NCBI RefSeq assembly: GCF_011250635.1
Contig: NZ_JAANNP010000001.1
Coordinates: 1-64,000, forward strand
Length of the DNA: 64,000 nucleotides
Direction: 5' to 3'
DNA from: Motilibacter deserti
Lineage (GTDB): Bacteria; Actinomycetota; Actinomycetes; Motilibacterales; Motilibacteraceae
The notes beneath the pieces are model-generated. The model had not been told where the DNA came from and did not search any database. It saw only the letters and a program-made list of their open reading frames with translations. Position 1 is the first letter of the stretch, and each line of letters starts with the position of its first letter. Position numbers and translations under genes: made by a program. Of the stretch, positions 33,915 through 58,774 are shown one piece after another.

Positions 33915-34849
33915 TCGCGGCCCAGGTCGCGGTGGACCACCGTCACCTCCGCGCCGGCCGCGCGCAGCCTGCGGGCCAGCTCCTCGGAGATCGCGACGGA
34001 CCGGTGCTTGCCGCCGGTGCATCCCACCGCGAGCGTCGCGTAGTGCTTGCCCTCGCGCTCGTAGCCGTCGGTCACGATGCCCAGCACGTCGCTGAAGCGG
34101 TCGACGAACTCACGGGCGCCCGGACGGGACAGGACGTAGTCGCGGACGTCGGGGTCCTGCCCGGTCTGCGGGCGCAGCGTCGGGACCCAGTGCGGGTTCG
34201 GCAGGAACCGGCAGTCGACGACGAGGTCGGCGTCGACCGGCAGGCCGTACTTGTAGCCGAAGGACATCACGGTGGCGCGGACCCCGTGCGAGGCCGCCTC
34301 GTCGAAGGCGCGGCGCACGGCGTCGGCGAGCTGGTGCACGTTGAGCGCGCTGGTGTCGAGCACCACGTCGGCGTCGCCGCGCACGTCCTCCAGCAGGCGG
34401 CGCTCGGCCTGGATGCCGTCGAGGATGCGCCCGCCCTCCTGCAGCGGGTGGGGGCGGCGTACGGACTCGAACCGGCGCACCAGGACGTCGTCGGCCGCCT
34501 CGAGGAACAGCGTGCGCACCGTCATCCCGACGCCGGCCAGGTCCTCCAGCGCCGCGCGCAGGTCCAGCGAGAAGGCGAGGCTGCGCACGTCGACCACCGC
34601 GGCCATTCGCGGCACCGAACCCGCGGTCCTGCTCGCGAGGTCGGCGAGCCGGGGCAGCAGCGACGGCGGCAGGTTGTCCACGACGTACCAGCCGAGGTCC
34701 TCGAGCGTGTTCGCAGCCGTGCTGCGGCCGGCGCCGGACATGCCGGTCACCAGCACGAGCTCGACGGGGGGCCGCGCCGGAGCCTCCGGCTCGTCCTGCC
34801 GCGAGCCCTCCTGCGGCACGGCCGGAGCCTCCTCCCGCGTCGCGTCCAC
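33911..34849 (-). CDS. rapZ: RNase adapter / nucleotide-binding protein RapZ (YvcJ)
   Basis: RapZ-family proteins are P-loop nucleotide-binding proteins; the E. coli member guides RNase E to GlmZ RNA. The 312-residue protein has Walker [13 protein letters not shown], with Arg replacing the usual Lys as in many actinobacterial members. [14 protein letters not shown] and [17 protein letters not shown] follow. The first ~30 residues are a charged variable tail. GTG 34849 shares one base with the uvrC TAG stop. Confidence 0.93.
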
Positions 34850-36969
34850 TACGCCGTCCCTCCCGTGCCGGTCCGCACCGCGGCGGCAGCCGCGTCGTCC
34901 CCAGCCGGCAGGCCGGGGGGCTCGTCCTCCGGCGGAGTGCCGCCGGAGCCGGAAAGCATTGCACCCGCAGGCTGCTTTGACAGCCCCGCGCCGGGGCCCG
35001 CGAGGGCGGCGACCACCGCTTCGGCCGTCCGCGGCCCGATGCCGGGCAGCGTCGCGATCTCCTCCGCCGTGGCCTCGCTCAGCTTCTTCACGGAGCCGAA
35101 GTGGCGCAGCAGCGCCTTGCGGCGCGCGTCCCCGAGGCCGGGCACGTCGTCCAACACGCTCGCGCGGACCGACTTCGCCTTGCGCTGGCGGTGGAAGGAG
35201 ATCGCGAAGCGGTGCGCCTCGTCGCGTACGCGCTGCAGCAGGTAGAGCCCCTCGCTGCTGCGCGGGAGGATGACCGGGTGGTCGTCGTCGGGCAGCCACA
35301 CCTCCTCGAGCCGCTTCGCCAGCCCGCAGAGGGCCACGTCGTCGACACCCAGCTCGTCGAGCGCCCGCTGGGCCGCGGCGACCTGCGGCGGGCCGCCGTC
35401 GACGACGACGAGGTTCGGCGGGTACGCGAACTTGCGCGGGCGCCCCGTCTCGGGGTCGATGCCGCGCGGGGCGCCCGACCCCGGCTGCTCGGCCTCGCCC
35501 GGCGCCCCGCCGTCGACGGGGTCCAGCGCCGACAGCCCGCCCTGCTCGACGCCGGCCTCACCCGTGCGCTCGCGCTCGTCGAGATAACGCCGGAACCGCC
35601 GGGTGATGACCTCGTGCATCGACGCCACGTCGTCGGAAGTGCCGTTCAGGCCTCGGATGGCGAAGCGGCGGTACTCGCTCTTGCGCGCGAGCCCGTCCTC
35701 GAACACCACCATCGAGGCGACGACCTCGTCGCCCATCGTGTGCGAGACGTCGTAGCACTCGATGCGCAGTGGCGCGGACTCCAGCCCCAGCGCCTCCTGG
35801 ATCTCCTGCAGCGCCCGCCCGCGGGTCGTCAGGTCGCTCGCCCGGCGCGTCTTGTGCAGCGCGAGGGCCTGCTGGGCGTTGCGGGCGACGGTCTCCATCA
35901 GCGCCTTCTTGTCCCCGCGCTGCGGGACCCGCAGGTCCACCCGCGCACCGCGCACGAGCTGGAGGATCTCGGCGACGACCGTGGGGTCCTCCGGCAGGGC
36001 GGGGACGAGCAGCTCGCGGGGCACGTCGTTGCCCGCGTCCAGGTAGAACTGCTCGACGAAGCGCTCGACCAGCGCCGGGGTGTCGACGTCCTCGACCTTG
36101 TCGACGACGAAGCCGCGCTGGCCGCGGACGCGGCCGCCGCGTACGTGGAAGACCTGCACAGCGGCCTCCAGCTCGTCCTCGCAGAAGGCGACGACGTCGG
36201 CGTCCGTGCCCTCGGGCAGCACGACCGCGCTCTTCTCCATAGCCCGCCGCAGCGCGCCGATGTCGTCACGCAGCCGGGCCGCCCGCTCGAACTCCAGCTC
36301 GTCCGAGGCCTCCTGCATGCGCTGCTCGAGCCGGCGCACGAAGCGGGTGGTGGACCCGGCCATGAAGTCGCAGAAGTCGTCGACGATCTGCCGGTGCTCC
36401 TCGGCACTCACCTTGCCGACGCAGGGCGCCGAGCACTTGTCGATGTAGCCGAGCAGGCACGGGCGCCCGACCTGGGACGCACGCTTGAAGACGCCGTTGG
36501 AGCAGGTACGCGCAGGGAAGACGCGCAGCAGCAGGTCGAGCGTCTCGCGGATGGCCCAGGCATGGGCGTAGGGGCCGAAGTAGCGGACGCCCTTGCGCTT
36601 GGGACCGCGCATCACCGTGAGCCGCGGGTAGTCGTCCGACACAGTGACGGCGAGGCTGGGATAGCTCTTGTCGTCGCGGTACTTCACGTTGAAGCGCGGG
36701 TCGAACTCCTTGATCCAGGAGTACTCCAGCTGGAGCGCCTCGACCTCGGTGTTGACGACCGTCCACTCGACGCTCGCGGCCGTGGTGACCATCGTCGCGG
36801 TCCGCGGGTGCAGCCCCAGGACGTCCTGGAAGTAGTTGTTCAGCCGGTTGCGCAGGCTCTTCGCCTTGCCGACGTAGATGACCCGGCCGTGCGCGTCGCG
36901 GAAGCGGTAGACCCCCGGGGAGTCCGGCACCTCCCCCGGTGCGGGGCGGTAGCTCGCGGGATCGGCCAT
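34849..36969 (-). CDS. uvrC: Excinuclease ABC subunit C
   Basis: UvrC makes both incisions in nucleotide excision repair. The 706-residue protein has an N-terminal GIY-YIG nuclease domain ([21 protein letters not shown]), a UVR domain near residues 200-240 ([22 protein letters not shown]), the RNase H-like second nuclease ([21 protein letters not shown]) and C-terminal helix-hairpin-helix motifs. The ATG sits eight bases after TAGCAT (36978-36983), consistent with a leaderless transcript. A Ser/Gly/Glu-rich insertion around 480-510 is unusual but unlikely to disrupt function. Confidence 0.96.
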
Positions 36970-37049
36970 GGATACCGATGCTACGTTCGCGCCGGCGCTG
37001 CCCGGCTCTGCCGGATGGCTCGTCCGGGGCGCACGGACGCCGAGCCCGC

Positions 37050-37898: not shown

Positions 37899-40817
<2,919 letters not shown>

Positions 40818-40849
40818 GGGCCCCTCTCGCATCTGCGTGGGTAGTGCTC

Positions 40850-40911
40850 GCCGCGCACGGTCGTGCGCGGCTGGTCGTGCTGGGTCGTGCCCTTCGGTGC
40901 TCCGGTCGTGC
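40850..40911 (-). repeat. Hairpin and GGTCGTGC word repeats in the uvrA leader
   Basis: GCCGCGCAC (40850-40858), loop GGTC, GTGCGCGGC (40863-40871) form a perfect 9-bp stem. The word GGTCGTGC recurs at 40859, 40873, 40883 and 40904, so alternative foldings are possible. It lies 33-94 bases before the uvrA start within the predicted 5' UTR. A regulatory role is possible but not shown. Confidence 0.5.
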
Positions 40912-40986
40912 TGGTCGGAGCCCTGCGGCGTCGGACGGGAGACGCCCGCTCGTGCGCGCGCCGGAGCCCGGTCCAGGCCGCGTTCC

Positions 40987-41009
40987 ATGCTAGGTGCCGC
41001 CACCGACAG
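40987..41009 (-). promoter_or_regulatory. PafBC-type (RecA-independent DNA damage) promoter of uvrA
   Basis: The minus strand reads CTGTCGGTG, eight bases, then TAGCAT. This fits the mycobacterial RecA-NDp consensus TTGTCRGTG-N8-TANNNT at all but the first base. The same block with identical spacing precedes uvrB. The -10 lies about 170 bases upstream of the uvrA start. Confidence 0.75.
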
Positions 41010-41143
41010 TCGCCCCCGACGAGTCGGCCGCCGGACTTGTCCGGCATGCCGCCGGTCACAAGCACACGGCAAGGAAGCGGCAACTGGATCTTCCTAGCGT
41101 CGCACCGACACGAGATCCGCGACCTGACGCTGCAGAAGGAACC

Positions 41144-42010
41144 ATGACCTCCAACGACAGCACGACCCCGCACGCTTCCCTCGACCGCCGCACGCTGCTC
41201 AAGCGGGCCGGCGTGGTGGGCGCCACGGCCGTGTGGGCCGTGCCCACCATCACCAGCACCGGCTCCGCCTGGGCGGTGGGCAGCCCCGCCCCGGGCGGCG
41301 GCGGCGATCCGGTCCCCGTACCCACGGGCACGGTGAAGGGCAAGGTCGTCGACGGCGCGACGCTGCGTCCGGTGGCCGGGGCCACCGTCACGGCAGGCAC
41401 CGTGTCGGCGACGACGGCTGCCGACGGCACCTACACGCTGGCCAAGGTGGCGAGCGGCTCCGCGTCCGTCAGCGTGAGCGCGCCCGGCTACACGACCGCA
41501 ACGGCCCAGGTCGACGTCCCCGCCAACGCCTCCGTCACGCGCGACTTCGCCCTGTCCACCACGGGCAGCTTCCGCGCGATCCTCTCGTGGGGCAACGTCT
41601 CCGACCTCGACCTCTACGTGAGCGGCCCGAAGCCCGACGGCACGCGGTTCACCGCGTCGTACAACAACTACCGGCCGGTCCCCTACGTCTCGCTGGACGT
41701 CGACTCGCGCAACCCCGGCGGCACCGAGACGACGACCATCACGGTGGACACCCTCGGTGGGTCGTTCGTGCCGGGCGAGTACCGGGTCTGGGCCTACAAC
41801 TACTCCGGCAGCCCCGCCTACGACACCAACGGCGCGCGCCTGTCGCTCTTCGGCCCGAGCGCGCAGCTGGGCACCTGGGACGCCGCGGCGGCCGGGGGCT
41901 CCGCGAGCGACCGCTACTGGTACGTCGTCGCGTTCACCGTGGCGGCCGATGGCTCCGTGACCGCGCTGGACGTGAAGCAGCAGCGACGCGCGGACGCGGC
42001 CGGGCTCTGA
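41144..42010 (+). CDS. Tat-exported protein with carboxypeptidase-regulatory-like and DUF2135-like domains
   Basis: A 288-residue predicted secreted protein. The Tat leader has DRRTLLKRAG (Arg15-Arg16), a hydrophobic stretch and likely cleavage after SAWA (residue 44), followed by a Gly/Pro linker. Residues 63-137 resemble a carboxypeptidase-regulatory-like beta-sandwich (GKVVDGATLRPVAGATVTAG). Residues 142-280 contain AILSWGNVSDLDLYVSGP and FVPGEYRVWAYNYSG, reminiscent of DUF2135/YfaP-like domains. No catalytic motif is evident. The leader is almost identical to that of the protein at 46969. The three-gene MBL-HprK-PqqD unit follows. Confidence 0.85.
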   Translation: MTSNDSTTPHASLDRRTLLKRAGVVGATAVWAVPTITSTGSAWAVGSPAPGGGGDPVPVPTGTVKGKVVDGATLRPVAGATVTAGTVSATTAADGTYTLAKVASGSASVSVSAPGYTTATAQVDVPANASVTRDFALSTTGSFRAILSWGNVSDLDLYVSGPKPDGTRFTASYNNYRPVPYVSLDVDSRNPGGTETTTITVDTLGGSFVPGEYRVWAYNYSGSPAYDTNGARLSLFGPSAQLGTWDAAAAGGSASDRYWYVVAFTVAADGSVTALDVKQQRRADAAGL

Positions 42011-42017
42011 GCCTTGC

Positions 42018-42061
42018 CCGGGGGCCGGCAACTGCGGGGAGGGGCAGCGGCCGGCCCCCGG
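42018..42061 (+). terminator. Terminator after the Tat-exported protein gene
   Basis: CCGGGGGCCGGC (42018-42029) pairs perfectly with GCCGGCCCCCGG (42050-42061), starting seven bases after the stop. It partly separates this gene from the MBL-HprK-PqqD unit, which starts 20 bases later. Confidence 0.7.
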
Positions 42062-42081
42062 CGAGCAGGCAGGATGGCGCA

Positions 42082-42759
42082 GTGAGCTACACCGGGGACG
42101 TACGCGTGGGCGGGCCGCCCGACGTGCTGGAGCTGCCGTCGATCACGGTCGTCAAGCTGGCCGTGGGGCCGATGGACAACAACGCCTACCTGCTGCGGTG
42201 CCGCCGCACAGGTGGAGTGCTGCTCGTCGACGCCGCCGGCGAGGCCGACCGGCTGCTCGCCCTGGTCGACGAGTACGCACAGGGCAGGCTCGACCGCGTC
42301 GTGACGACGCACCGCCACCCCGACCACTGGGGCGCCCTCGCCGCTGTCGTCTCGGCCACCGGCGCACGGACCGCGGCCGGGGAGCCCGACGCCGACGCCA
42401 TCCCCGTGCGCTGCGACGACCGGCTCGTCCACGGCGACTCGGTCCCGGTCGGCGAGACGGGCGCGGGCGCGGCCCGGCTGCGGGTCGTCTCGCTCGTCGG
42501 GCACACCCCCGGCTCGGTGGCCCTGGTCGCCGAGGAGGCCGAGCCCGAGCCGCACGTGTTCACCGGCGACTCGCTGTTCCCCGGCGGGGTGGGCAAGACG
42601 CACTCCCCCGCCGACTTCACCTCGCTGCTCGGCGACGTCGAGCGCGAGCTGTTCGGCCGGCTGCCCGACGCCACGGTCGTCCACCCTGGCCACGGCAAGG
42701 ACACCACCCTCGGCGCCGAGCGCCCCGCGCTGCCGGAGTGGCGGGCGCGCGGGTGGTGA
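42082..42759 (+). CDS. MBL-fold metallo-hydrolase
   Basis: A 225-residue metallo-beta-lactamase-fold protein of the glyoxalase II-like type. The metal-binding HxHxDH motif is in TTHRHPDHWG (residues 75-84); other ligands lie in SLVGHTPGS, FTGDSLFPGG and VHPGHGKDT. The GTG start follows AGGAT. Its stop overlaps the next gene (GTGA). An MBL protein beside uvrA is common in actinobacteria, so it may be a housekeeping hydrolase rather than a dedicated partner of the next two genes. Substrate unknown. Confidence 0.92.
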   Translation: MSYTGDVRVGGPPDVLELPSITVVKLAVGPMDNNAYLLRCRRTGGVLLVDAAGEADRLLALVDEYAQGRLDRVVTTHRHPDHWGALAAVVSATGARTAAGEPDADAIPVRCDDRLVHGDSVPVGETGAGAARLRVVSLVGHTPGSVALVAEEAEPEPHVFTGDSLFPGGVGKTHSPADFTSLLGDVERELFGRLPDATVVHPGHGKDTTLGAERPALPEWRARGW

Positions 42760-43616
42760 GCGAGACCCGCGACTGCGAGCGCCTCGGCCCCTACCTGGCG
42801 CTCGACGCCGTCGTCGAGGTGTCCGTCGAGGACGCGCGGACCGCGGCGTACCTGCGCCGGGCGCTGTCCGGCCTGCCCACGGCGCCGGCTGGCGCGCGCC
42901 CGGTCCGCTACGCGCTGCGCCGCGTCGACGCCGGCCACGTGCTCGAGCGCAACGACGAGCCCGTGCTCGTCGAGCCGGACCGCGGTTGGCTGCCCACCGC
43001 GTACCTCCTCTGGCACCTCAACCGCGACGCGGTGAACGCGACGCTGCCGCGCGCCACCGTCCTGCACGCGGCCGCGGCCAGCTGGGCCGGCGGCACGGTG
43101 CTCCTCCCCGCCCCGATGGAGACCGGCAAGTCCACGCTCGTGACCGGCCTGGTGCGAGCGGGCTTCTCGTACGTCACCGACGAGGCCGTCGCCGTCGACC
43201 CGGCCACGCTGGCCCTGACGAGCTACCCGAAGCCGATCGGCCTCGACCCGGGCTCCTGGCCGGTGCTGCCCGACGCCCGCCCCGACGACGCCGACGTCCT
43301 GCCCGAGCAGTGGCTCGTGGCCGCGTCCGGCCTGGCCGGCTCCGGCGGCGTCGCCCCGCAGCCGGTGCCGCCGGCCCGCCTGGTCGTCCTGGCTTCGTTC
43401 GAGCGCGGCGCACGGGCCCGCCTGGAGATGCTGACTCCGGGCGCCGCGGTCCTCGAGATGGCCAGGAGCTGCTTCGGCTGGCCGGGCACCGCCCGCCGGG
43501 ACCTGCCGGTCCTGGCCCGGCTTGCAGAGTCCGTCCCGAGCTTCCGGCTCCCGCGCGGGGACCTCGACGGAGCGGTCGCCACGCTGCGGTCCGCCCTCGA
43601 GCGGGCGGCGGCATGA
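42756..43616 (+). CDS. HPr kinase/phosphorylase-like (HprK C-terminal type) protein
   Basis: A 286-residue protein with the P-loop APMETGKSTLV (residues 119-129), YVTDEAVAVD at 139-148 and the preceding TVLHAAAASW; these match HprK-like kinase domains found in some RiPP pathways. No PTS genes are near, so HPr itself is an unlikely substrate. It overlaps the MBL gene upstream (GTGA) and the PqqD-like gene downstream (ATGA), strongly implying joint translation. I infer a kinase acting with the PqqD-like protein on a peptide or protein; the target is unknown. Confidence 0.82.
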   Translation: MSETRDCERLGPYLALDAVVEVSVEDARTAAYLRRALSGLPTAPAGARPVRYALRRVDAGHVLERNDEPVLVEPDRGWLPTAYLLWHLNRDAVNATLPRATVLHAAAASWAGGTVLLPAPMETGKSTLVTGLVRAGFSYVTDEAVAVDPATLALTSYPKPIGLDPGSWPVLPDARPDDADVLPEQWLVAASGLAGSGGVAPQPVPPARLVVLASFERGARARLEMLTPGAAVLEMARSCFGWPGTARRDLPVLARLAESVPSFRLPRGDLDGAVATLRSALERAAA

Positions 43617-43918
43617 CCGGGCGGCCACGGCTGCGGCCCGGCGTGCTCTGGGTCGACGTCGCCGACGAGCGCGTCGGCTACGACGAGCAGGCCGGCCGGC
43701 TGCACCTGCTCAGCCCGGTGGGCGCCGCGGTCGCGGACCTGCTGGAGTCCGGCCGCTCCGTCGACGAGGCCGTCGACCAGCTGACCGGCGCCTCCGGTCG
43801 CACGCGGGGCGAGGTCGAGCGCGCCGTCCACGACGTGCTGGCCGCGCTGGCCGCGGCGGGCCTGCTGCAGGACCGACCGGGCCCCGCCGGCCCCGGCCCC
43901 GGGGGCCCGGCGGGCTGA
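43613..43918 (+). CDS. PqqD-like peptide-chaperone family protein
   Basis: A 101-residue protein resembling PqqD, the RiPP-recognition chaperone: RLRPGVLWVDVADERVGYDEQAG, LHLLSPVGAAVADLLESGRS and VDEAVDQLTG, then a winged-helix-like VERAVHDVLAALAAAGLL. The last ~15 residues are a Gly/Pro tail. The ATG overlaps the HprK-like stop. HprK plus PqqD-like pairs occur in several lasso-peptide and related systems; here no B1/B2 protease, cyclase or precursor is visible. Confidence 0.82.
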   Translation: MTGRPRLRPGVLWVDVADERVGYDEQAGRLHLLSPVGAAVADLLESGRSVDEAVDQLTGASGRTRGEVERAVHDVLAALAAAGLLQDRPGPAGPGPGGPAG

Positions 43919-44047
43919 CTCGCTGCCCGTCGCGGTCAGACGCGGCGGCGTCCCCCAGAAGGTGCCGTCGCCGCTCCGGCTGGGACCGTGCCGCAGCCGC
44001 TCCGGCGAGGCGCTGCCGCCGCTCCGCTGCGGATGAAGCCGTTCCGG

Positions 44048-44974
44048 CTAGCGGGACGACCGCGCTTCGTCGGGACGGCCCGGCTCCGGCACGCCGGCGT
44101 CCGACGCGTCCTCCACCGAGGTGGCCGCGGTCGCGCCAGCTGGCGCGGAGGGCGCCTGGTCCGAGAGGTCGACCACCGCGTGCCCGTCGGCGGAGGGACG
44201 GGCGTTGGCCAGCGGGTCCTTGGCCAAGGGGTCCCTGGCCAGCGCTGCCGTGCCGTTCAGCCCGGCGGGCAGCGCGGGAAGCGCCGAGACGGCCTGTGGC
44301 TGGGCCCGGCCCCACTCCAGCTCCACGTCACGCAGCAACGCCTCGAGGTAGGCCCGCAGCTGCACGCGGGTCACCTGGCCGAAGGCGCGCAGGTAGGCGA
44401 CCTGCTCCTCGAGCTCCTGCTTGGCCTGCGCCGAGTCGGTGCCGGCCGCGACCGGCTCGGCCGCCGGCGCACCACTGGGCAGGGCCGGGGCCCCGTTCGG
44501 CGCGGGAGCCGCGGCGGAGGCCTCGAGCGCGAGCCGCTCGGCCTGCTCGACGATGGCCTTGGCGCGCACCCGCGCCTCCTCGACCAGCTCCTCGGCGTGC
44601 TGCCGGGCGTCGCTCGTCACGCGACGGCTGTACTGCTCGGCGTCGGCGACGTACTGGTCCGCGGTCTGCTGGGCAGCGGACAGCACTCGCACGGCTTGGA
44701 GCGACGCGGCGTCGCGACGCTCGCCGCCGCCCTCGCCGTCCGGGCTCGACACCTGCTCCTTGAGGCGGATGACCTCGTCGCGCAGCTCGCCCTTCTCCCG
44801 GATGAGCCGGGTCAGCTCCACCTGGACCCGCTCGAGGAAGACGTCGACCTCGGTCACGTCGTAGCCGCGGCGACCGAGGCCCGAGCGACCGAACAGGACG
44901 CTGTGGACGTCGGCAGGACTCAGCCGACGGGCCCACTCCTGGTGGTCGGGCACGGAGTTCGTGGGGGTCGTCAT
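44048..44974 (-). CDS. DivIVA-domain coiled-coil protein
   Basis: A 308-residue protein. RRLSPADVHSVLFGRSGLGRRGYDVTEVDVFLERV at about residues 17-52 is a DivIVA-type N-terminal domain. A long coiled coil follows (to about residue 150) with repeated AEQY/ARQHAEEL-type heptads, then an Ala/Pro-rich linker and a second helical part near 190-230. The C-terminus is disordered. It is likely a peripheral scaffold at the membrane. The ATG overlaps the stop of the flavohemoprotein gene (ATGA), an unexpected translational coupling. Confidence 0.87.
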   Translation of the reverse strand: MTTPTNSVPDHQEWARRLSPADVHSVLFGRSGLGRRGYDVTEVDVFLERVQVELTRLIREKGELRDEVIRLKEQVSSPDGEGGGERRDAASLQAVRVLSAAQQTADQYVADAEQYSRRVTSDARQHAEELVEEARVRAKAIVEQAERLALEASAAAPAPNGAPALPSGAPAAEPVAAGTDSAQAKQELEEQVAYLRAFGQVTRVQLRAYLEALLRDVELEWGRAQPQAVSALPALPAGLNGTAALARDPLAKDPLANARPSADGHAVVDLSDQAPSAPAGATAATSVEDASDAGVPEPGRPDEARSSR

Positions 44975-46110
44975 GACGTCAAGCTCCCTTCGGCACTGGG
45001 CCCCGGCCGGCTCGGGGCGAACCTCTCCGCTCGGATGCGGTGCTCCGGCACGCCCGCCTTGATGAGCTCCTTGACGGTCTCGTCGACCATCAGCGGCGCC
45101 CCGCACACGAACACGTCCCTGCTGCCCCACGGGCCGTCGCGGACCACCACGTCGCTGACGCGCCCCTTCTCCCCGGGGTAGTCGTCCTCGTCGGAGACCA
45201 CGGGCACCACGGTCACCCACGGGTGGGCGCGGGCGAGCGCCTGCAGGCTCTCGAGGTCGTAGAGGTCGGCAGCCGTCCGTGCCTCGACGTAGAAGTCGAC
45301 GCGGCGGGCGACGTCGTCCTGCGTGACCTGCTCGAGGATCGCCTTGAGCGGGGCCACGCCCGTGCCGCTCGCGACGAGCAGGAGGTCGCGGTCGGACGTC
45401 GTGTCGAGCACGAGCCCGCCCTGGGGCGGCCCGAGCCGGACCGCGTCGCCGACCGCGAGGTGGCGGACGAGGGCCGAGCTCACCGGGCCGCCGTCGTGAG
45501 CCTGCACGTGCAGCTCCAGGACGTTGTCCTCGCGGGGAGCGTTGGCGACGGCGTAGTAGCGCCAGAGCCGGGGCCGCAGCTCACTCTCCACGGCCACGGC
45601 CTGGCCCGGGACGAAGTCGAGGCGCTCGCGCGGCTCCAGGCGGACGACCGCGATGTCGAGCGTTCGCCGCTCGTGCGAGACCACGCGCGCGTCCCACCAG
45701 GCCGGGTCGTCGGACTGACCGGCGGCCTCGGTCATGACGGAGGCGATGACGCCGTAGGCCTCGGCCCAGTCGGCCGCGAGCTCGGGCGTCCACGCGTCAC
45801 CGGCGAAGTGCTCGAGCGTGGCCAGGAGGCTGGCCCCGACCGCCGGGTAGTGCCCGGCGAGCGTCCCGAACTTGCGGTGGTCGCGACCGAGGTCCTGCAG
45901 GAACGGGACGAGTACGTCCACATTGTCCACATTGGTCACAATGTGTCCGAGCGCGGCGAACAAGCGGTCGCGCTGCGTCATCATCGAGACGGGGAACAGT
46001 GAACGGGTCTCGGGATAGTTCAGGAACAGGTGCGAGTAGAAGAACAGCGGGACCTCATCGCCGTTCGCACCGACGACCTCGAAGCTGTCGCGCATTCGCT
46101 GGATGTCCAC
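44971..46110 (-). CDS. Flavohemoprotein-like globin/reductase
   Basis: A 379-residue protein with an N-terminal globin domain (1-~135; FYSHLFLNYPETRSLFP, heme-ligand histidine in GRDHRKFG) fused to a ferredoxin-NADP reductase-like module: FAD site WRYYAVANAP, NAD site ASGTGVAPLKAIL and VFVCGAPLMVDETVK. Flavohemoproteins oxidise NO to nitrate at the cost of NAD(P)H. It is about 20 residues shorter than E. coli Hmp. A truncated hemoglobin gene lies upstream on the same strand. The sequence does not show whether NO is the true substrate. Confidence 0.9.
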   Translation of the reverse strand: MDIQRMRDSFEVVGANGDEVPLFFYSHLFLNYPETRSLFPVSMMTQRDRLFAALGHIVTNVDNVDVLVPFLQDLGRDHRKFGTLAGHYPAVGASLLATLEHFAGDAWTPELAADWAEAYGVIASVMTEAAGQSDDPAWWDARVVSHERRTLDIAVVRLEPRERLDFVPGQAVAVESELRPRLWRYYAVANAPREDNVLELHVQAHDGGPVSSALVRHLAVGDAVRLGPPQGGLVLDTTSDRDLLLVASGTGVAPLKAILEQVTQDDVARRVDFYVEARTAADLYDLESLQALARAHPWVTVVPVVSDEDDYPGEKGRVSDVVVRDGPWGSRDVFVCGAPLMVDETVKELIKAGVPEHRIRAERFAPSRPGPSAEGSLTS

Positions 46111-46173
46111 CAGAAGCTCTCCTCCCCCACTGTCCTTGTCTCCGCCGTGCCCGGGCCGGCACGGTGCTGCCGG

Positions 46174-46545
46174 CTACGAACCGGATGGCACGGGATCCGC
46201 GACGATGTCGTCGCGGTGGGCGCCGAGCGCCGCTGCGACGGTCCCGAGCGTCTCGTCGTCGACCCCGAGCGACGTGAGCGTGGCCGCAAGGTGGCCCACG
46301 ACCCGGTCGAAGTCCGCGGACGTGATGCCGAGCGAGCGGTGCGCCTGCGCGAGGTCCCGCCCCTCGTAGGCCTTCGGCCCGCCCGTCACCTGGACGAGCA
46401 GGGCAGCCTGGTGCTGACGGAGCCGCGCCATGTCGACGCCCTCGAAGTAGCCGGCGAGCGCAGGGTCACCCAGCACGCGGCGGTAGAACTCGTCCACCGC
46501 GGCACGAATGCCATGCTCCTGGCCGAGAACGTCGTAAATCGACAC
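46174..46545 (-). CDS. Group I truncated hemoglobin (HbN-like)
   Basis: A 123-residue 2-over-2 globin. YDVLGQEHGIRAAVDEFYRRVLGDPALAGYF gives the A/B helices with the conserved Phe-Tyr pair, and the proximal histidine is in LAQAHRSLGI. QHQAALLVQVTGGP and FDRVVGHLAATL are family-typical. In mycobacteria HbN detoxifies NO. GTG 46545 is chosen because the frame upstream has no globin character. A promoter with good -35/-10 spacing lies upstream. The flavohemoprotein gene follows 63 bases later. Confidence 0.93.
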   Translation of the reverse strand: MSIYDVLGQEHGIRAAVDEFYRRVLGDPALAGYFEGVDMARLRQHQAALLVQVTGGPKAYEGRDLAQAHRSLGITSADFDRVVGHLAATLTSLGVDDETLGTVAAALGAHRDDIVADPVPSGS

Positions 46546-46968
46546 GGATCGCCTACTCCAACCTTCCAGGTGCCCGGGCCATCGCGGCCCGGCGGGACCG
46601 ACTGTAGGGGGTGCCCGCCGCGTGCGTAACACAATCCCCAGACTTCGGATACGCGCTGATCACACCAGGCGGGCACGAGGAAGTTGCCGGCCGCCGAATT
46701 TCCGTCCAGGCACGGACGGTGCTACTCGGCATTCCGTGACGAGCAAATAACGGAGCGTCGCAGCCGATGGCCTGCCGCCGGTCCAGGCGGCAGGCGCACC
46801 CTATGGGCCGGTCTGCACAGTTCGCCCGGGCCCGGCGCGAGGGGTTCGCCGCCTCTTCGGACGAAGTTCGGCAACTCGAACGGTGCGACGGCCCCGTCGT
46901 TGCTAGCGTCCGACCGCTCTGGCTCGTCCAGGGCGGCACAGCTCGCAAGCGACACAGGGGGGATTGCG
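46546..46968. promoter_or_regulatory. Divergent region between truncated hemoglobin and second Tat protein
   Basis: This 423-base stretch holds no gene. On the minus strand TTACGC (46624-46629), 17 bases, TACAGT (46601-46606) form a plausible sigma-70 promoter for the hemoglobin gene. On the plus strand TAGCGT (46904-46909) could be the -10 of the Tat protein gene; GGGGGGAT (46957-46964) is its ribosome-binding site. The middle part is less GC-rich (ACGAGCAAATAACGG) and unassigned. Confidence 0.5.
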
Positions 46969-47544
46969 ATGGACGACAGCGCGCAGACGCTGCCGACGGG
47001 CAGCGCGGTCGACCGACGGACGATGCTCAAGCGCGCGGGTGCGCTGGGCGTCGCGGCGGTGTGGGCGACGCCGGTCCTGCAGAGCACGGGAGTGGCCTAC
47101 GCGGTGGGGAGCCCGCCGCCCGGCGGCACCCCGGTCCCGCCCGGCGGCATCAACCAGCTGCCGCTGCGGGGCGTGCTCGTGGTGCGTTTCGACGGCTCGC
47201 CCGACCGGGTCGCTCTCAGCATCTACAACGGGGGCTCCACCCTCGACCGCACGATCAACAACGAGGACAGCACGTTCATCACGTCCAAGATCGGAACGTG
47301 GCGCGACGCGAGCAGCGCGGAGCGCAGCCGCTTCACGACGTTCGGCGCGACGACGTACGCCGGCTCCGCTGCGCTCTTCGTCACCCTGCCGGCGGGCGTG
47401 GCCTTCGTCGACGGCGTGACATACACCTTCGACGGCAGCTTCTACAACTGCGGTGACGGCGACAAGTACACGACCGCCTACCGCAGCGGCAGCACCGTCT
47501 ACTTCGTCCGCGCCTGCAACGAGTCGAGCGGCGGGGAGTCCTAG
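46969..47544 (+). CDS. Tat-exported protein of unknown function
   Basis: A 191-residue predicted secreted protein. The Tat leader DRRTMLKRAGALGVAAVWATP (Arg16-Arg17) closely matches that of the protein at 41144, including STG-(x)-A-(x)-AVGSPPPGG around the cleavage site. The mature part (about residue 60 on) is beta-rich with GVLVVRFDGSPDRVALSIYNGG. It carries two cysteines (Cys161 and Cys183) that could form a disulfide outside the cell. No similarity to a known enzyme was recognised. Strong GGGGGG ribosome-binding site. Confidence 0.8.
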   Translation: MDDSAQTLPTGSAVDRRTMLKRAGALGVAAVWATPVLQSTGVAYAVGSPPPGGTPVPPGGINQLPLRGVLVVRFDGSPDRVALSIYNGGSTLDRTINNEDSTFITSKIGTWRDASSAERSRFTTFGATTYAGSAALFVTLPAGVAFVDGVTYTFDGSFYNCGDGDKYTTAYRSGSTVYFVRACNESSGGES

Positions 47545-47578
47545 CCGCTGCCTCCTCGCGTACCCGCGACAGCAAAGC

Positions 47579-47612
47579 ACGAGGGGACGGCCCAACCGGG
47601 CCGTCCCCTCGT
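47579..47612. terminator. Bidirectional terminator between the Tat protein gene and uvrB
   Basis: ACGAGGGGACGGCCC (47579-47593), loop AACC, GGGCCGTCCCCTCGT (47598-47612): a perfect 15-bp stem between convergent genes, usable from both sides. Confidence 0.88.
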
Positions 47613-47636
47613 CGCGTCGTGGGGCCAGGCCGCGAG

Positions 47637-49754
47637 TCAGCCGACCCCGGCGGTCCGCATCCCGCGCAGCTCCTTCTTGAGCTCCTGGACCTCGTCACGC
47701 AGCCGGGCGGCGAGCTCGAACTGCAGCTCGGCCGCAGCGGTCCGCATCTGGTCGGTCAGCGTCTGGATGAGCTCGGCGAGGTCGTTGGCCGGCATGCCGG
47801 AGGCCAGCTGCTTGGCGTGGGCGCCGACGTCCGCCTTCGAGGACAGGCCCGGCACGGGGGACTTGCCGCGCGACTGCTGCCGGCCGGACCCGCCCAGCAG
47901 CTCGGCCGTGTCGGCTTCCTCGCGGGCCAGCAGGTCGGTGATGTCCGCGATCCGCTTACGCAGCGGCTGCGGGTCGATCCCGCGCTCCTTGTTGTAGGCG
48001 ACCTGCTTCTCGCGCCGTCGGGCGGTCTCCTCGATCGCCTGCGCCATCGAGGGCGTGATCTTGTCGGCGTACATGTGCACTTGGCCGGAGACGTTGCGGG
48101 CCGCGCGCCCGATCGTCTGGATCAGCGAGGTCGCGGAGCGCAGGAACCCCTCCTTGTCCGCGTCGAGGATCGCGACGAGCGACACCTCCGGCAGGTCGAG
48201 GCCCTCGCGGAGCAGGTTGATGCCGACGAGCACGTCGTACTCGCCCATGCGCAGCTCGCGCAGGAGCTCGACCCGGCGCAGGGTGTCGACCTCGGAGTGC
48301 AGGTAGCGGACCCGGATGCCGAGCTCGAGCAGGTAGTCCGTGAGGTCCTCGGACATCTTCTTGGTGAGGGTCGTGACCAGGACCCGCTCGTCGCGCTCGG
48401 TCCGCTGCCGGATCTCGTGCACCAGGTCGTCGATCTGGCCCTTGGTGGGCTTGACGATGACCTCGGGGTCGACGAGCCCGGTGGGCCGGATGACCTGCTC
48501 GACGAACTCGCCTCCCGTGCGGGTCAGCTCGTAGGCCCCCGGTGTGGCCGAGAGGTAGACCGTCTGGCCGATCCGCTCGAGGAACTCCTCCCACTTGAGC
48601 GGTCGGTTGTCCATCGCGCTCGGCAGCCGGAACCCGTGCTCGACGAGCGTCCGCTTGCGGGACATGTCGCCCTCGTACATCGCGCCGATCTGGGGCACCG
48701 CCACGTGGGACTCGTCCACGACGAGCAGGAAGTCCTCGGGGAAGAAGTCGAGCAGCGTGTTGGCCGCCGACCCCGGCTCGCGCCCGTCGATGTGCAGCGA
48801 GTAGTTCTCGATGCCGGAGCAGAACCCGACCTGGCGCATCATCTCGATGTCGTAGGTCGTGCGCATGCGCAGCCGCTGCGCCTCGAGCAGCTTGCCCTGC
48901 TTCTCCATCTTGGCCAGCTGGTCGCCGAGCTCGCGCTCGATGCCGGCGATCGCGCGCTCCATGCGCTCGGGGCCGGCCACGTAGTGCGTCGCCGGGAAGA
49001 TGCGGACCTGCTCCTGCTCGGCGATCACCTCGCCGGTCAGCGGGTGCAGCATGAGGATGCGCTCGATCTCGTCGCCGAACATCTCGATCCGGACGGCGAG
49101 CTCTTCGTAGACGGGGATGATCTCGATGGTGTCGCCGCGCACCCGGAACGTGCCGCGGGTGAAGGCGAGGTCGTTGCGCGTGTATTGGACCTCGACGAAC
49201 CGGCGCAGCAGCGTGTCGCGGTCGATCTCCATCCCGACGTGCAGCTCGACCATCCGGTCGACGTACTCCTGCGGGGTGCCGAGGCCATAGATGCACGAGA
49301 CGGTCGCCACCACCACGGCGTCCCGCCGGGTCAGCAGCGAGCTCGTCGCCGAGTGGCGCAGCCGCTCGACCTCCTCGTTGACCGAGGAGTCCTTCTCGAT
49401 GTAGGTGTCCGTCTGCGGGACGTAGGCCTCGGGCTGGTAGTAGTCGTAGTACGACACGAAGTACTCGACCGCGTTGTTCGGCAGCATCTCGCGCAGCTCG
49501 TTCGCCATCTGCGCCGCGAGCGTCTTGTTCGGCTCGAGCACCAGCGTCGGGCGCTGCAGGCGCTCGATGAGCCAGGCGGTGGTCGCGCTCTTGCCGGTGC
49601 CGGTCGCGCCGAGCAGCACGACGTCCTTCTCTCCCGCCCGGATCCGCCGCTCGAGCTCGGCGATCGCGGTGGGCTGGTCGCCGCTCGGCTCGAACTCGGA
49701 CACGACGGAGAAGGGCGTGGCCGAACTGCGCTGGAGGTCGGTGACGGGTCGCAC
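47637..49754 (-). CDS. uvrB: Excinuclease ABC subunit B
   Basis: UvrB is the helicase-like core of excision repair. The 705-residue protein has Walker [15 protein letters not shown], the beta-hairpin region [33 protein letters not shown], helicase motif QTIGRAARN and a C-terminal UVR domain ([20 protein letters not shown]). GTG 49754 is chosen: a TACCTT -10 ends six bases before it, so the transcript is probably leaderless. The much longer open frame upstream overlaps coaE and is not real. Confidence 0.96.
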
Positions 49755-49760
49755 GCATCG

Positions 49761-49783
49761 AAGGTACGTCGCCCCACCGACAG
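49761..49783 (-). promoter_or_regulatory. PafBC-type (RecA-independent DNA damage) promoter of uvrB
   Basis: The minus strand reads CTGTCGGTG, eight bases, TACCTT, then six bases to the uvrB GTG. It fits the RecA-NDp consensus and matches the uvrA promoter over a 13-base CGACTGTCGGTGG block at identical spacing. Predicted transcription start coincides with the start codon. Confidence 0.8.
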
Positions 49784-55975: not shown

Positions 55976-58744
55976 TCAGTGCCCGGCGTCCTGCCAGGTG
56001 CGCCCGACGCCGACGCTCACGTCGAGCGGCACGGACAGGCTCGCGGCCGCGCCCATCTCCCGGCGCAGCAGCGCCTCCAGCTCCTCCCGCTCCCCCGCCG
56101 CCACCTCGAGCACGAGCTCGTCGTGGACCTGCAGCAGCATCCGCGACTTCAGCTTCGCTGAAGCCATCGCGATGTCGACCTTGAGCATCGCGACCTTGAC
56201 GATGTCGGCCGCCGAGCCCTGGATCGGGGCGTTGAGCGCCATGCGCTCGGCCATCTCCCGGCGCTGCCGGTTGTCGCTCGTGAGATCCGGCAGGTAGCGC
56301 CGGCGGCCGAGCACGGTCTCGGTGTAGCCCGACAGCCGGGCCTTGGCCACGATGTCGCGCAGGTAGTCGCGCACCCCGCCGAAGCGCTCGAAGTACTCGT
56401 CCATGAGGCCCTGCGCCTCGTCGTAGCCGATGGTGAGCTGCTTGCCCAGCCCGTAGGCCGACAGCCCGTAGGCCAGCCCGTAGGACATGGCCTTGATCTT
56501 GGCCCGCTGCTCCAGCGAGACCTCCGCCGGCGGGACCCCGAACACCCGCGACGCGGTGAAGGCGTGCAGGTCCTCGCCCGACTGGAAGGCCTCGATGAGC
56601 CCGGCGTCCGCGGACAGGTGCGCCATGATCCGCATCTCGATCTGGCTGTAGTCCGCGGTCATCAGCGACTCGAACCCGGGGCCGACGACGAACCCCTCCC
56701 GGATGCGCCGCCCCTCCTCGGTGCGGATCGGGATGTTCTGCAGGTTCGGGTCCGTGGAGGAGAGCCGGCCCGTCGCAGCGATGGTCTGGTTGAAGGTCGT
56801 GTGGATCCGGGCGTCGTCGCGGACCTCCGCCAGCAGGCCCGTGACCGTCTGCTTGAGCCGGGACGCGTCGCGGTGGCGCAGCAGGTGGGCCAGGAACGGA
56901 TGCTCGGTCTGGACGTAGAGCGACTGCAGCGCGTCGGCGTCGGTCGTGTAGCCGGTCTTCGTGCGCTTCGTCTTCGGCATCTTGAGCTCGTCGAAGAGCA
57001 CGACCTGCAGCTGCTTCGGCGAGCCGAGGTTGATCTTCTTGCCGATCACGGCGTACGCCTCGTCGGCCGCCTGCTTCACGTGGTCCGCGAAGTAGGCCTC
57101 GAGGCCGCCCAGGTGGTCGAGGTCGACCGCGATGCCGTCGCGCTCGAGCCGCCCGAGCAGCGGCACGAGCGGGAGCTCGACCTCCTGCAGGAGCGGCCCC
57201 TGCCCCTTCTCCTCCAGCTCCACGTCGAGCGCGTCGGCGAGGTCGACGACCGCCCGCGCCCGCAGCATCGCCGACTGCGCGCGGGCGTCCTCGTCGACGC
57301 CGTCGAGCGAGAGCTGCCCGTCGTCGGCGCCCTCCGCCCGCAGCTCGCGCTGCAGGTAACGGATGACGAGGTCGGACAGGTCGAAGGTGCGCGTGTCGGG
57401 GCGGGCGAGGTAGGCCGAGAGCTGGGTGTCGCTGGTGACGCCCGCCAGTGACCAGCCGCGCTCGCGCAGGGCGTGCAGCGGCCCCTTCGCGTCGTGCAGC
57501 GCCTTCGGCCGGTCGGGGTCGGCCAGCCACTCCCCCAGGGCCGCGTCGTCGTCCGGCAGCAGTGTCGTCGGGTCGACGTACATGGCCGTGCCGTCGCCGG
57601 CCGCGAGTGCGAGCCCGTGCACCTCGCCGGTGCCGCTGCGCCACGTGCCGACGACGTGCACGCCCGTGCGGGCGGCTCCGGCGGCGTGGGCAGCGAGCCA
57701 CTCGCGGACGGTCCCGGGGGCGAGCACCTGCCCCGCCATCTCGAAGCCCTCGTCGGCCGTCGGGGCCTCGGGGGCGAACGCCTCGTAGAGCCGCTCGCGC
57801 AGGACCCGGAACTGGAGGGTGTCGAACACCTGGTGGACCGCGTCCCGGTCGAACGACTGCCACACCAGGTCGTCGGGCTGGACGTCGATCGGGACGTCGC
57901 GGCGCAGCTCGGTCAGCTCGCGGTTGCGGATGACCTGGGACAAGTGGTCACGCAGCGCCTGCCCGGCCTTGCCCTTGACCTCGTCGACGCGGTCGATGAT
58001 CGCGTCGAGCGAGCCGAACTCGACGACCCACTTGGCGGCGGTCTTCTCCCCGACCGAGGGGATGTTGGGCAGGTTGTCGCTGGGGTCGCCGCGCAGGGCG
58101 GCGAAGTCGGGGTACTGCGTCGGGCTCAGCCCGTAGCGCTCCTGCACGGCGTCGGGCGTCATCCGGGAGATCTCGCTGACCCCGCGCTTGGGGTAGAGCA
58201 CGGTGACGTTGTCGCTGACGAGCTGGAAGGAGTCCCGGTCGCCGGAGCTGATGAGGATCTCGTAGCCCTCGGGCTCGGCGCGGTCCACGAGCGTGGCGAT
58301 CACGTCGTCGGCCTCGAACCCCTCGGCCGTCACGACCGGGATGCGCAGGGCGTCCAGCACCTCGCGGATGAGCGGGACCTGGCTGCCGAACTCGCTGGGC
58401 GACTTGGTGCGGTTCGCCTTGTAGTCGGGGAAGGCGGTCGTACGGAACGTCGCCCGGCCCACGTCGAACGTGCAGGCCACGTGCGTCGGCCGCTCGTCGC
58501 GGAGCATGTTGATCAGCATCGAGGTGAAGCCGTAGACCGCGTTGGTCGGCTGGCCCGTCGAGGTGTTGAAGTTCTCGACCGGGAGCGCGTAGAACGCGCG
58601 GTAGGCCAGCGAGTGGCCGTCGAGAAGGAGCAGGCGCCCGCCCGTGCCCACGCGTGTGCCGAGCTCCGTGCCCGGCTCGGCCCCGGCCTCCACCGTGCCT
58701 GCCGTCGCGCCGCCCGTTGCCGTCGTCCCACCGCTTCCTGCCAC
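55976..58744 (-). CDS. polA: DNA polymerase I
   Basis: PolA fills gaps in repair and removes RNA primers. The 922-residue protein has an N-terminal 5'-3' exonuclease domain (LLLLDGHSLAYRAFYAL; FDVGRATFRTTAFPDYKANR; LRGDPSDNLPNIPSVGEKTAAKW). A degenerate 3'-5' exonuclease-like middle and a family A polymerase domain follow (DYSQIEMRIMAHLS; RAKIKAMSYGLAYGLSAYGL; LLQVHDELVLEV). GTG 58744 is chosen because TACGAT (58752-58757) ends seven bases before it. Upstream codons up to a TTG at 58810 lack PolA character. It diverges from the thioesterase gene. Confidence 0.95.
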   Translation of the reverse strand: MAGSGGTTATGGATAGTVEAGAEPGTELGTRVGTGGRLLLLDGHSLAYRAFYALPVENFNTSTGQPTNAVYGFTSMLINMLRDERPTHVACTFDVGRATFRTTAFPDYKANRTKSPSEFGSQVPLIREVLDALRIPVVTAEGFEADDVIATLVDRAEPEGYEILISSGDRDSFQLVSDNVTVLYPKRGVSEISRMTPDAVQERYGLSPTQYPDFAALRGDPSDNLPNIPSVGEKTAAKWVVEFGSLDAIIDRVDEVKGKAGQALRDHLSQVIRNRELTELRRDVPIDVQPDDLVWQSFDRDAVHQVFDTLQFRVLRERLYEAFAPEAPTADEGFEMAGQVLAPGTVREWLAAHAAGAARTGVHVVGTWRSGTGEVHGLALAAGDGTAMYVDPTTLLPDDDAALGEWLADPDRPKALHDAKGPLHALRERGWSLAGVTSDTQLSAYLARPDTRTFDLSDLVIRYLQRELRAEGADDGQLSLDGVDEDARAQSAMLRARAVVDLADALDVELEEKGQGPLLQEVELPLVPLLGRLERDGIAVDLDHLGGLEAYFADHVKQAADEAYAVIGKKINLGSPKQLQVVLFDELKMPKTKRTKTGYTTDADALQSLYVQTEHPFLAHLLRHRDASRLKQTVTGLLAEVRDDARIHTTFNQTIAATGRLSSTDPNLQNIPIRTEEGRRIREGFVVGPGFESLMTADYSQIEMRIMAHLSADAGLIEAFQSGEDLHAFTASRVFGVPPAEVSLEQRAKIKAMSYGLAYGLSAYGLGKQLTIGYDEAQGLMDEYFERFGGVRDYLRDIVAKARLSGYTETVLGRRRYLPDLTSDNRQRREMAERMALNAPIQGSAADIVKVAMLKVDIAMASAKLKSRMLLQVHDELVLEVAAGEREELEALLRREMGAAASLSVPLDVSVGVGRTWQDAGH

Positions 58745-58751
58745 GCCCTGA

Positions 58752-58774
58752 ATCGTAGGCGCGACCGGGGACAG
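58752..58774 (-). promoter_or_regulatory. polA promoter, leaderless, partial PafBC-like match
   Basis: Minus strand: CTGTCCCCG, eight bases, TACGAT, seven bases, GTG of polA. The TGTC core and the N8 spacing match the uvrA/uvrB damage promoters, but the RGTG half is lost. The leaderless geometry is clear; the DNA-damage link is weak. Confidence 0.4.

Follow-up and report, generated by a model that had tools for sequence, protein, structure and literature searches.

Promoter elements upstream of uvrA and uvrB

The genes uvrA and uvrB lie on the minus strand of the window, the whole 64,000-nucleotide stretch of Motilibacter deserti DNA (contig NZ_JAANNP010000001.1, positions 1 to 64,000) that was analysed here, and each is preceded by a predicted promoter of the PafBC type, also called RecA-NDp. 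The genes uvrA, polA, coaE, rpsA, uvrB and uvrC in the window were identified by NCBIfam equivalogs. The features of uvrA and uvrB were as follows.

37899..40817, minus strand: uvrA coding region (NCBIfam UvrA equivalog, 1581 bits; GTG 40817 taken as start)
40987..41009, minus strand: predicted PafBC-type (RecA-NDp) promoter of uvrA (0-mismatch match; conservation in relatives)
41009-41001, 40992-40987, minus strand: parts of the uvrA promoter, -26 element CTGTCGGTG and -10 hexamer TAGCAT, separated by a spacer of 8 nucleotides (nt)
47637..49754, minus strand: uvrB coding region (UvrB equivalog, 1070 bits; translation)
49761..49783, minus strand: predicted PafBC-type (RecA-NDp) promoter of uvrB (0-mismatch match; conservation in uvrB upstream regions)
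49783-49775, 49766-49761, minus strand: parts of the uvrB promoter, -26 element CTGTCGGTG and -10 hexamer TACCTT, separated by a spacer of 8 nt

The initial annotation had placed CTGTCGGTG-N8-TANNNT at 40987-41009 before uvrA and at 49761-49783 before uvrB, in both cases within an identical 13-base block. Both positions were exact, with 0 mismatches each, and the block, CGACTGTCGGTGG, enclosed both sites. The uvrB promoter was located inside the 50-bp gap after coaE. The uvrB start, GTG 49754, followed the -10 hexamer by 6 nt, and an ATG 4 bases upstream of it was out of frame; a leaderless uvrB mRNA is therefore predicted. The distance from the -10 hexamer of uvrA to the assumed GTG start was 169 nt, and an mRNA leader of about 160 nt is predicted after this promoter. 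The frame upstream of the uvrA start was open through leader and promoter (41072-40818 on the minus strand; open reading frame 37899-41072), so that gene callers may place the uvrA start too early. A second TGTCGGTG was present at window positions 41110-41103 (minus strand), 102 nt upstream of the uvrA motif, and was followed by TAGGAA after 6, not 8, nt.

The pattern TGTCRGTG-N8-TANNNT matched the 64-kb window twice, solely at uvrA and uvrB, and its reversed sequence 0 times, compared with 0.015 matches expected from 200 first-order Markov simulations. With 2 mismatches to CTGTCGGTG-N8-TANNNT the window gave 5 matches against 2.11 expected, which was not clearly beyond chance (9 of 100 shuffles were equal or higher). 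The genome (4.99 Mb in 269 contigs) was scanned with the pattern read backwards as control, and the initial annotation's question of a random genome-wide frequency could be answered: the motif exceeded the control, with 7 matches against 0 for TGTCGGTG-N8-TANNNT and 18 against 0 for TGTCRGTG-N8-TANNNT. A scan with one mismatch yielded 42 matches and 7 in the control. As 7 of 15 inspected one-mismatch sites of other kinds had no open reading frame of 120 codons starting within 150 nt, the one-mismatch sites were left uncounted.

Conservation of the uvrA site was examined in 30 relatives including the genome itself, and in 25 of them 300 nt of upstream sequence could be read. TGTCR-N11-TANNNT was present before uvrA in 20 of these 25 genomes of the window's class ('class' meaning the grouping of the genome collection); the other spacings between N6 and N16 gave no match, and neither did the opposite strand. 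The full canonical form was found at L271-L274 (own genus and family), of which L272-L274 represent one same-genus and two same-family genomes. For uvrB 80 loci were collected; 76 had enough upstream sequence, 44 of them classed as actinobacterial by their titles and 32 as others. The motif preceded uvrB in 25 of the 44 actinobacterial regions, with one stray at N16 and one antisense. The 32 non-actinobacterial regions gave a single N11 match (L079), no excess over N6 (1), N10 (1) and N16 (2). All 26 motif-bearing uvrB regions had an in-frame start 6-7 nt behind the -10 hexamer, and from there the frame was open into uvrB.

Regions without the motif before uvrB included those of Bifidobacterium, Corynebacterium, Mobiluncus and Rothia, and canonical sites were scarce in such genomes (Bifidobacterium 0 and 0, Corynebacterium 1, Mobiluncus 1, Rothia 0). 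For 28 loci, 27 genomes were searched, and among these the matches to the canonical form, with those of the control in second place, numbered 25 and 1 in Streptomyces oceani, 45 and 1 in Peterkaempfera, 31 and 0 in Saccharothrix, 33 and 0 in Nocardia, and 12 and 0 in Mycolicibacterium sphagni. The motif is present in this organism, as had been proposed, and is not special to it: much of the class has such promoters upstream of uvrA and uvrB.

Regulator genes, further targets and rival explanations

Both regulator genes that the initial annotation had asked for, pafB and pafC, were encoded in the genome, close to genes of the Pup-ligase family. The PafC protein (contig C6, 138-140 kb) matched HTH_PafC with an E value of 1.5e-39 and also contained WYL and WCX domains. 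The frame directly upstream on C6 was PafB, with WYL and WCX domains by Pfam and a helix-turn-helix (HTH)-like stretch recognised by eye in the same open frame. Two PF03136 genes (PafA/Dop, Pup-ligase family) were located near pafBC at C6:141608-142870 and C6:150632-152002. No Pup ligase had been found among seven hand-picked open reading frames of this region (L240), where other frames had been picked; the PF03136 family search found the two genes, one of them wholly inside L240. In pafB (L038:8814-9854, C6) the frame from the preceding stop to the HTH-like stretch showed no ATG, GTG or TTG, and a start at the first listed ATG would remove that stretch; pafB may use an unusual start codon, or the sequence may contain an error.

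Eight of the 18 exact sites in the genome preceded recA, uvrA, uvrB, sbcD, dnaE, a LigD-type primase-polymerase, a DEDD exonuclease with a UvrC-like part and a PD-(D/E)XK nuclease. Six preceded DUF222 genes by Pfam, and one (L021) a short frame with a DUF222-like N-terminus and no Pfam match. The remainder consisted of one methyltransferase, one ABC transporter and one site (L032) without a long open reading frame nearby. The chosen start codon was situated 6-8 nt behind the -10 hexamer at 14 of the 18 sites (14 of 17 when L032 is omitted), so leaderless mRNAs are predicted for most of them.

Exact PafBC-type promoters were found at 6 of the 7 DUF222 genes of the genome:

C234:21955 (L039), C269:12506 (L007), C232:988328 (L036): sites before DUF222 genes
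C1:49605 (L015), C259:26932 (L041), C250:28903 (L040): sites before DUF222 genes

A DUF222-HNH gene outside the window's class (L215) sits behind a site of the CACC form described below. The DUF222 proteins look like a target of the damage response.

Sequence, spacing, excess in the genome and conservation, as well as the pafB, pafC and Pup-ligase-family genes of this genome, all agree with the known PafBC-controlled damage motif, as the initial annotation had suggested. Judged from these sequence features, the blocks before uvrA and uvrB are very probably PafBC-dependent (RecA-NDp) promoters, and the pair is an ordinary RecA-NDp/PafBC promoter of a known kind. Some observations weigh against this assignment. 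Five of the 25 class uvrA regions had no TGTCR-N11-TANNNT, and L275, from the same family, had a merely degenerate uvrA site. The starts of uvrA, dnaE and the ABC transporter were distant from the -10 hexamer, and together with L032 these cases mean that not each site need drive its named gene. Of the further targets that had been expected, recA did carry the motif; none of the 18 exact sites was seen to precede dnaE2, ruvCAB or radA, although no individual search for these genes was made.

A TANNNT hexamer with a start codon close behind it is common in actinobacteria, and this counts for the view that the two sites are ordinary constitutive leaderless promoters whose shared block arose from chance or composition. 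This view is next to negligible in probability given the numbers of 18 against 0 in the genome and 1540 against 26 over 60 class genomes, and given that one spacing stands out in the conserved promoters. The sites could also be LexA/SOS promoters or be under LexA additionally. The genome's own recA (L005) has a near-perfect SOS box, TCGAACACGTGTTCGG with 1 mismatch, 150 nt upstream of its PafBC motif, so that recA may answer to both systems as in mycobacteria, where recA has two promoters (PMC5656591); and uvrA of Streptomyces venezuelae may be LexA-controlled (PMC9380542). Before uvrA and uvrB, however, no LexA-type box TCGAACNNNNGTTCGA was found at up to 2 mismatches, in agreement with the initial annotation, and 24 of 25 class uvrA upstream regions (300 nt) were likewise without such a box. 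At 3 mismatches there were one and two boxes before uvrA and uvrB, respectively. The window contained 9 matches to TCGAACNNNNGTTCGA with up to 2 mismatches against 2.48 expected from shuffles, 6 of them inside uvrC, uvrA, uvrB or polA and 3 far away in unannotated stretches (2012, 25046 and 63905), and this excess was taken as an effect of codon composition. LexA control was rejected on the upstream sequences, LexA-independence of the predicted uvrA and uvrB promoters fits them, and a role of LexA has a very slim chance.

A different reader of the same motif, either ClgR or a WYL activator such as SiwR, is highly unlikely. For mycobacteria, recognition of the P1/RecA-NDp promoter by ClgR has been reported (cited in PMC5656591), SiwR likewise acts at -26 (PMC10693628), and the genome holds 7 WYL-domain matches. 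Against these points, induction of recA P1 in M. smegmatis was fully blocked without pafBC (PMC5656591), the SiwR site is a 19-bp imperfect palindrome with a GGA triplet at -26, unlike the uvrA and uvrB sites (PMC10693628), and a related motif co-occurs with PafC across the phylum.

Control by PafBC would act as in mycobacteria. Single-stranded DNA in the WYL domains activates PafBC, the PafB HTH engages the -26 motif and the PafC HTH engages SigA domain 4 (PMC11804915). Correspondingly, DNA damage in this organism would give rise to single-stranded DNA and hence to an active PafB-PafC heterodimer, whose PafB HTH would bind the -26 element and whose PafC HTH would bind domain 4 of the housekeeping sigma factor, and RNA polymerase would be recruited. 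In that case uvrA and uvrB would respond to damage jointly with recA and further repair genes, independently of LexA; the uvrB transcript would be leaderless, and that of uvrA would begin with a leader of about 160 nt. The PafBC regulon of M. smegmatis includes UvrABC, and mycobacterial recA, uvrA and uvrC are under both systems (PMC8223512).

Two further repair genes of the window were inspected:

34849-36969, minus strand: uvrC (UvrC by NCBIfam equivalog)
36978..36983, minus strand: TAGCAT before uvrC, 8 nt from the uvrC ATG
58752..58774, minus strand: degenerate copy before polA, CTGTCCCCG-N8-TACGAT (polA by NCBIfam equivalog)

Upstream of uvrC TAGCAT was present alone and the TGTC element was absent, which bears out the lack of the block noted there earlier. 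The partial version with equal spacing that had been claimed before polA was also recovered, as CTGTCCCCG-N8-TACGAT at 58774-58752, with a candidate leaderless GTG of polA at 58744. This copy falls outside the TGTCR pattern because its fifth core base is C.

Lineage-specific forms of the motif in Actinomycetota

It has already been stated that the PafBC motif reaches other Actinobacteria (PMC8223512). For a comparison over the phylum, 396 genomes were searched for the canonical form, for HTH_PafC, and for TGTCRCACC-N7-TANNNT (CACC form) and TGTCRKACC-N7-TANNNT (KACC form), with the reversed pattern as control. The PafC threshold of E 2e-12 was set after viewing the result table, and the counts per genome, which were copied by hand before summing, are non-independent because the genomes are related. 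The 60 genomes of the window's class gave 1540 canonical matches against 26 in the control, each genome being above its own control, together with 63 against 33 for the CACC form and 338 against 8 for the KACC form. Outside the class, 146 PafC-bearing genomes gave 589 CACC matches against 11 and 243 KACC matches against 29, compared with 29 against 22 and 33 against 67, respectively, in the 190 genomes without clear PafC. At least 3 CACC sites were present in 71 of the 146 PafC-bearing genomes and in 2 of the 190 others.

The targets of the CACC form were assessed at 30 loci, one site per genome in 30 genomes, with Pfam run on one open reading frame at each of 20 loci. Thirteen of the 30 sites preceded recA (6), RmuC (2), SSB-family genes (2), a UvrD helicase, a RadA-like ATPase and a DnaQ-like exonuclease; 5 of the 6 recA genes were assigned by reading their sequences by eye, and the RadA-like ATPase by its sequence together with ATPase-type Pfam matches. 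Further sites preceded one DUF222-HNH gene and one LysM gene with an NrdR-like frame behind it (by eye). The other targets were a transketolase, a DUF2786 protein, a VWA protein, an alcohol dehydrogenase-like protein and a weak HAD match; five open reading frames had no Pfam match, three were not run through Pfam, L200 was cut at the contig end and L220 had no long open reading frame. The transketolase start was located 7 nt behind the site (L212), an unexpected target for a damage response. Genome G016 (family f26) contained 24 CACC sites in 2.5 Mb. The six listed had similar spacers, two of them identical over all 22 bases, so some may be repeat copies and not separate promoters.

The recA gene was also searched in 30 PafC-bearing genomes outside the class, where 21 loci were parsed automatically and four (L264, L265, L269 and L270) were excluded with an incomplete N-terminus. 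TGTCR-N11-TANNNT was found before recA at 20 of the 21 loci, with strays at N7 (1), N13 (2) and N15 (1); the opposite strand had no match. Among five unparsed loci the motif was present in L243, L257 and L260, in the last two farther upstream; L259 had none and L244 was unplaced. The four bases behind TGTCR were GACC (5), TACC (3), CAGG (2), CCCC (2), CTGC (2) and six singletons.

In each of the 19 stretches from outside the class that were retrieved around PafC matches, PafB and PafC were adjacent. The PafB stretch RxFERDKxxLR was compared in 47 sequences (28 from the class and 19 others): R, F, R, D, K and R were invariant, and E and L were present in 46. This near-invariance fits an invariant TGTC read by PafB, the stretch being the putative recognition helix. 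PafC was more variable than PafB, and its group differences could be plain phylogeny.

Taken together, the lineage forms share core, spacing and kind of target in PafBC-encoding genomes, with G087, G150 and family f25 as exceptions. The published PafBC motif is probably one dialect of a promoter TGTCR-N11-TANNNT that would extend over much of Actinomycetota. Its TGTCR would be read by PafB RxFERDKxxLR, while the next 3-4 bases would have drifted by lineage (GTG with some KACC in the window's class; CACC, GACC, TACC and others outside). The phylum comparison is where the new content lies, and it agrees with descent from a single PafBC promoter whose second half has drifted. No paper linking PafBC with Acidimicrobiia was found in the open literature, and a text search for TGTCACACC gave unrelated papers among the matches listed; an earlier report of the lineage forms is possible.

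The distribution is not uniformly in favour of this extension. The canonical form had at least 1 match in 156 of 336 genomes outside the class, mostly one to three, and nine genomes of family f18 outside the class gave 51 canonical matches against 3 in the control (summed by eye). PafC-bearing family f25 had 2 CACC matches over 11 genomes (also by eye), yet its four recA regions showed TGTCAC-type sites. The PafC-bearing loci L259 (f51) and L262 (f31) had no TGTC-N12-TANNNT before recA. The canonical form outside the class and the KACC form inside it indicate that the dialects are mixtures and no clean switches. The lineage forms outside the class might instead serve a sigma factor or activator that responds to damage, is unrelated to PafBC and shares TGTC and the spacing by coincidence. 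In the literature searched, as far as its excerpts go, no test of PafBC action on TGTCRCACC was found, and G087 and G150, without clear PafC, still hold 3 and 5 CACC copies. The spacing of the CACC form is nevertheless equal to the base, its target genes are alike at 13 of the 30 loci, it co-occurs with PafC, and PafB RxFERDKxxLR is nearly invariant over the groups, so that such an unrelated regulator is doubtful.

Significance and comparison with known systems

The uvrA/uvrB pair adds a non-mycobacterial organism to the known cases of this switch. If the dialects are true, the PafBC damage response would predate the divergence of the classes and would also operate in Streptomyces and in many groups without cultured members. 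PMC9380542 states, on the basis of an initial search, that the M. smegmatis motif 'is not conserved in S. venezuelae', while a RecA-NDp promoter was reported in S. coelicolor (PMC5087735). The dialects would explain negative searches with the M. smegmatis motif such as that in S. venezuelae (PMC9380542). They would also supply a list of predicted damage genes for many genomes, including the DUF222-HNH family, and a natural matched set of promoters and regulators for a change of specificity in a sigma-adapting activator.

The RecA-NDp consensus of mycobacteria is tTGTCRgtg, 8 nt and TannnT (PMC5656591). The promoters described here resemble the mycobacterial RecA-NDp/PafBC promoter in -26 element, spacing, -10 hexamer and the targets recA and uvr, and the systems are also alike in the location of pafBC near Pup-ligase-family genes and in a recA with an added SOS box (PMC5656591). 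The first base, however, is C here and T in the mycobacterial consensus. The uvrB of this organism matched Mycolicibacterium at 76 percent and several other genera at about 80 percent; since its nearest uvrB relatives belong to other genera, the genome falls outside the mycobacteria.

The RecA-NDp promoter of SCO6735 and recA in Streptomyces is of the same type, likewise outside the mycobacteria and before a UV-inducible gene, although the target gene SCO6735 differs (PMC5087735). SOS/LexA box promoters overlap in function and share recA, but no box with up to 2 mismatches was present at uvrA or uvrB here. The SiwR-dependent promoter similarly involves a WYL activator at the -26 region, whereas its site is a palindrome with GGA at -26, its activator is a homodimer and its target is the adjacent operon (PMC10693628).

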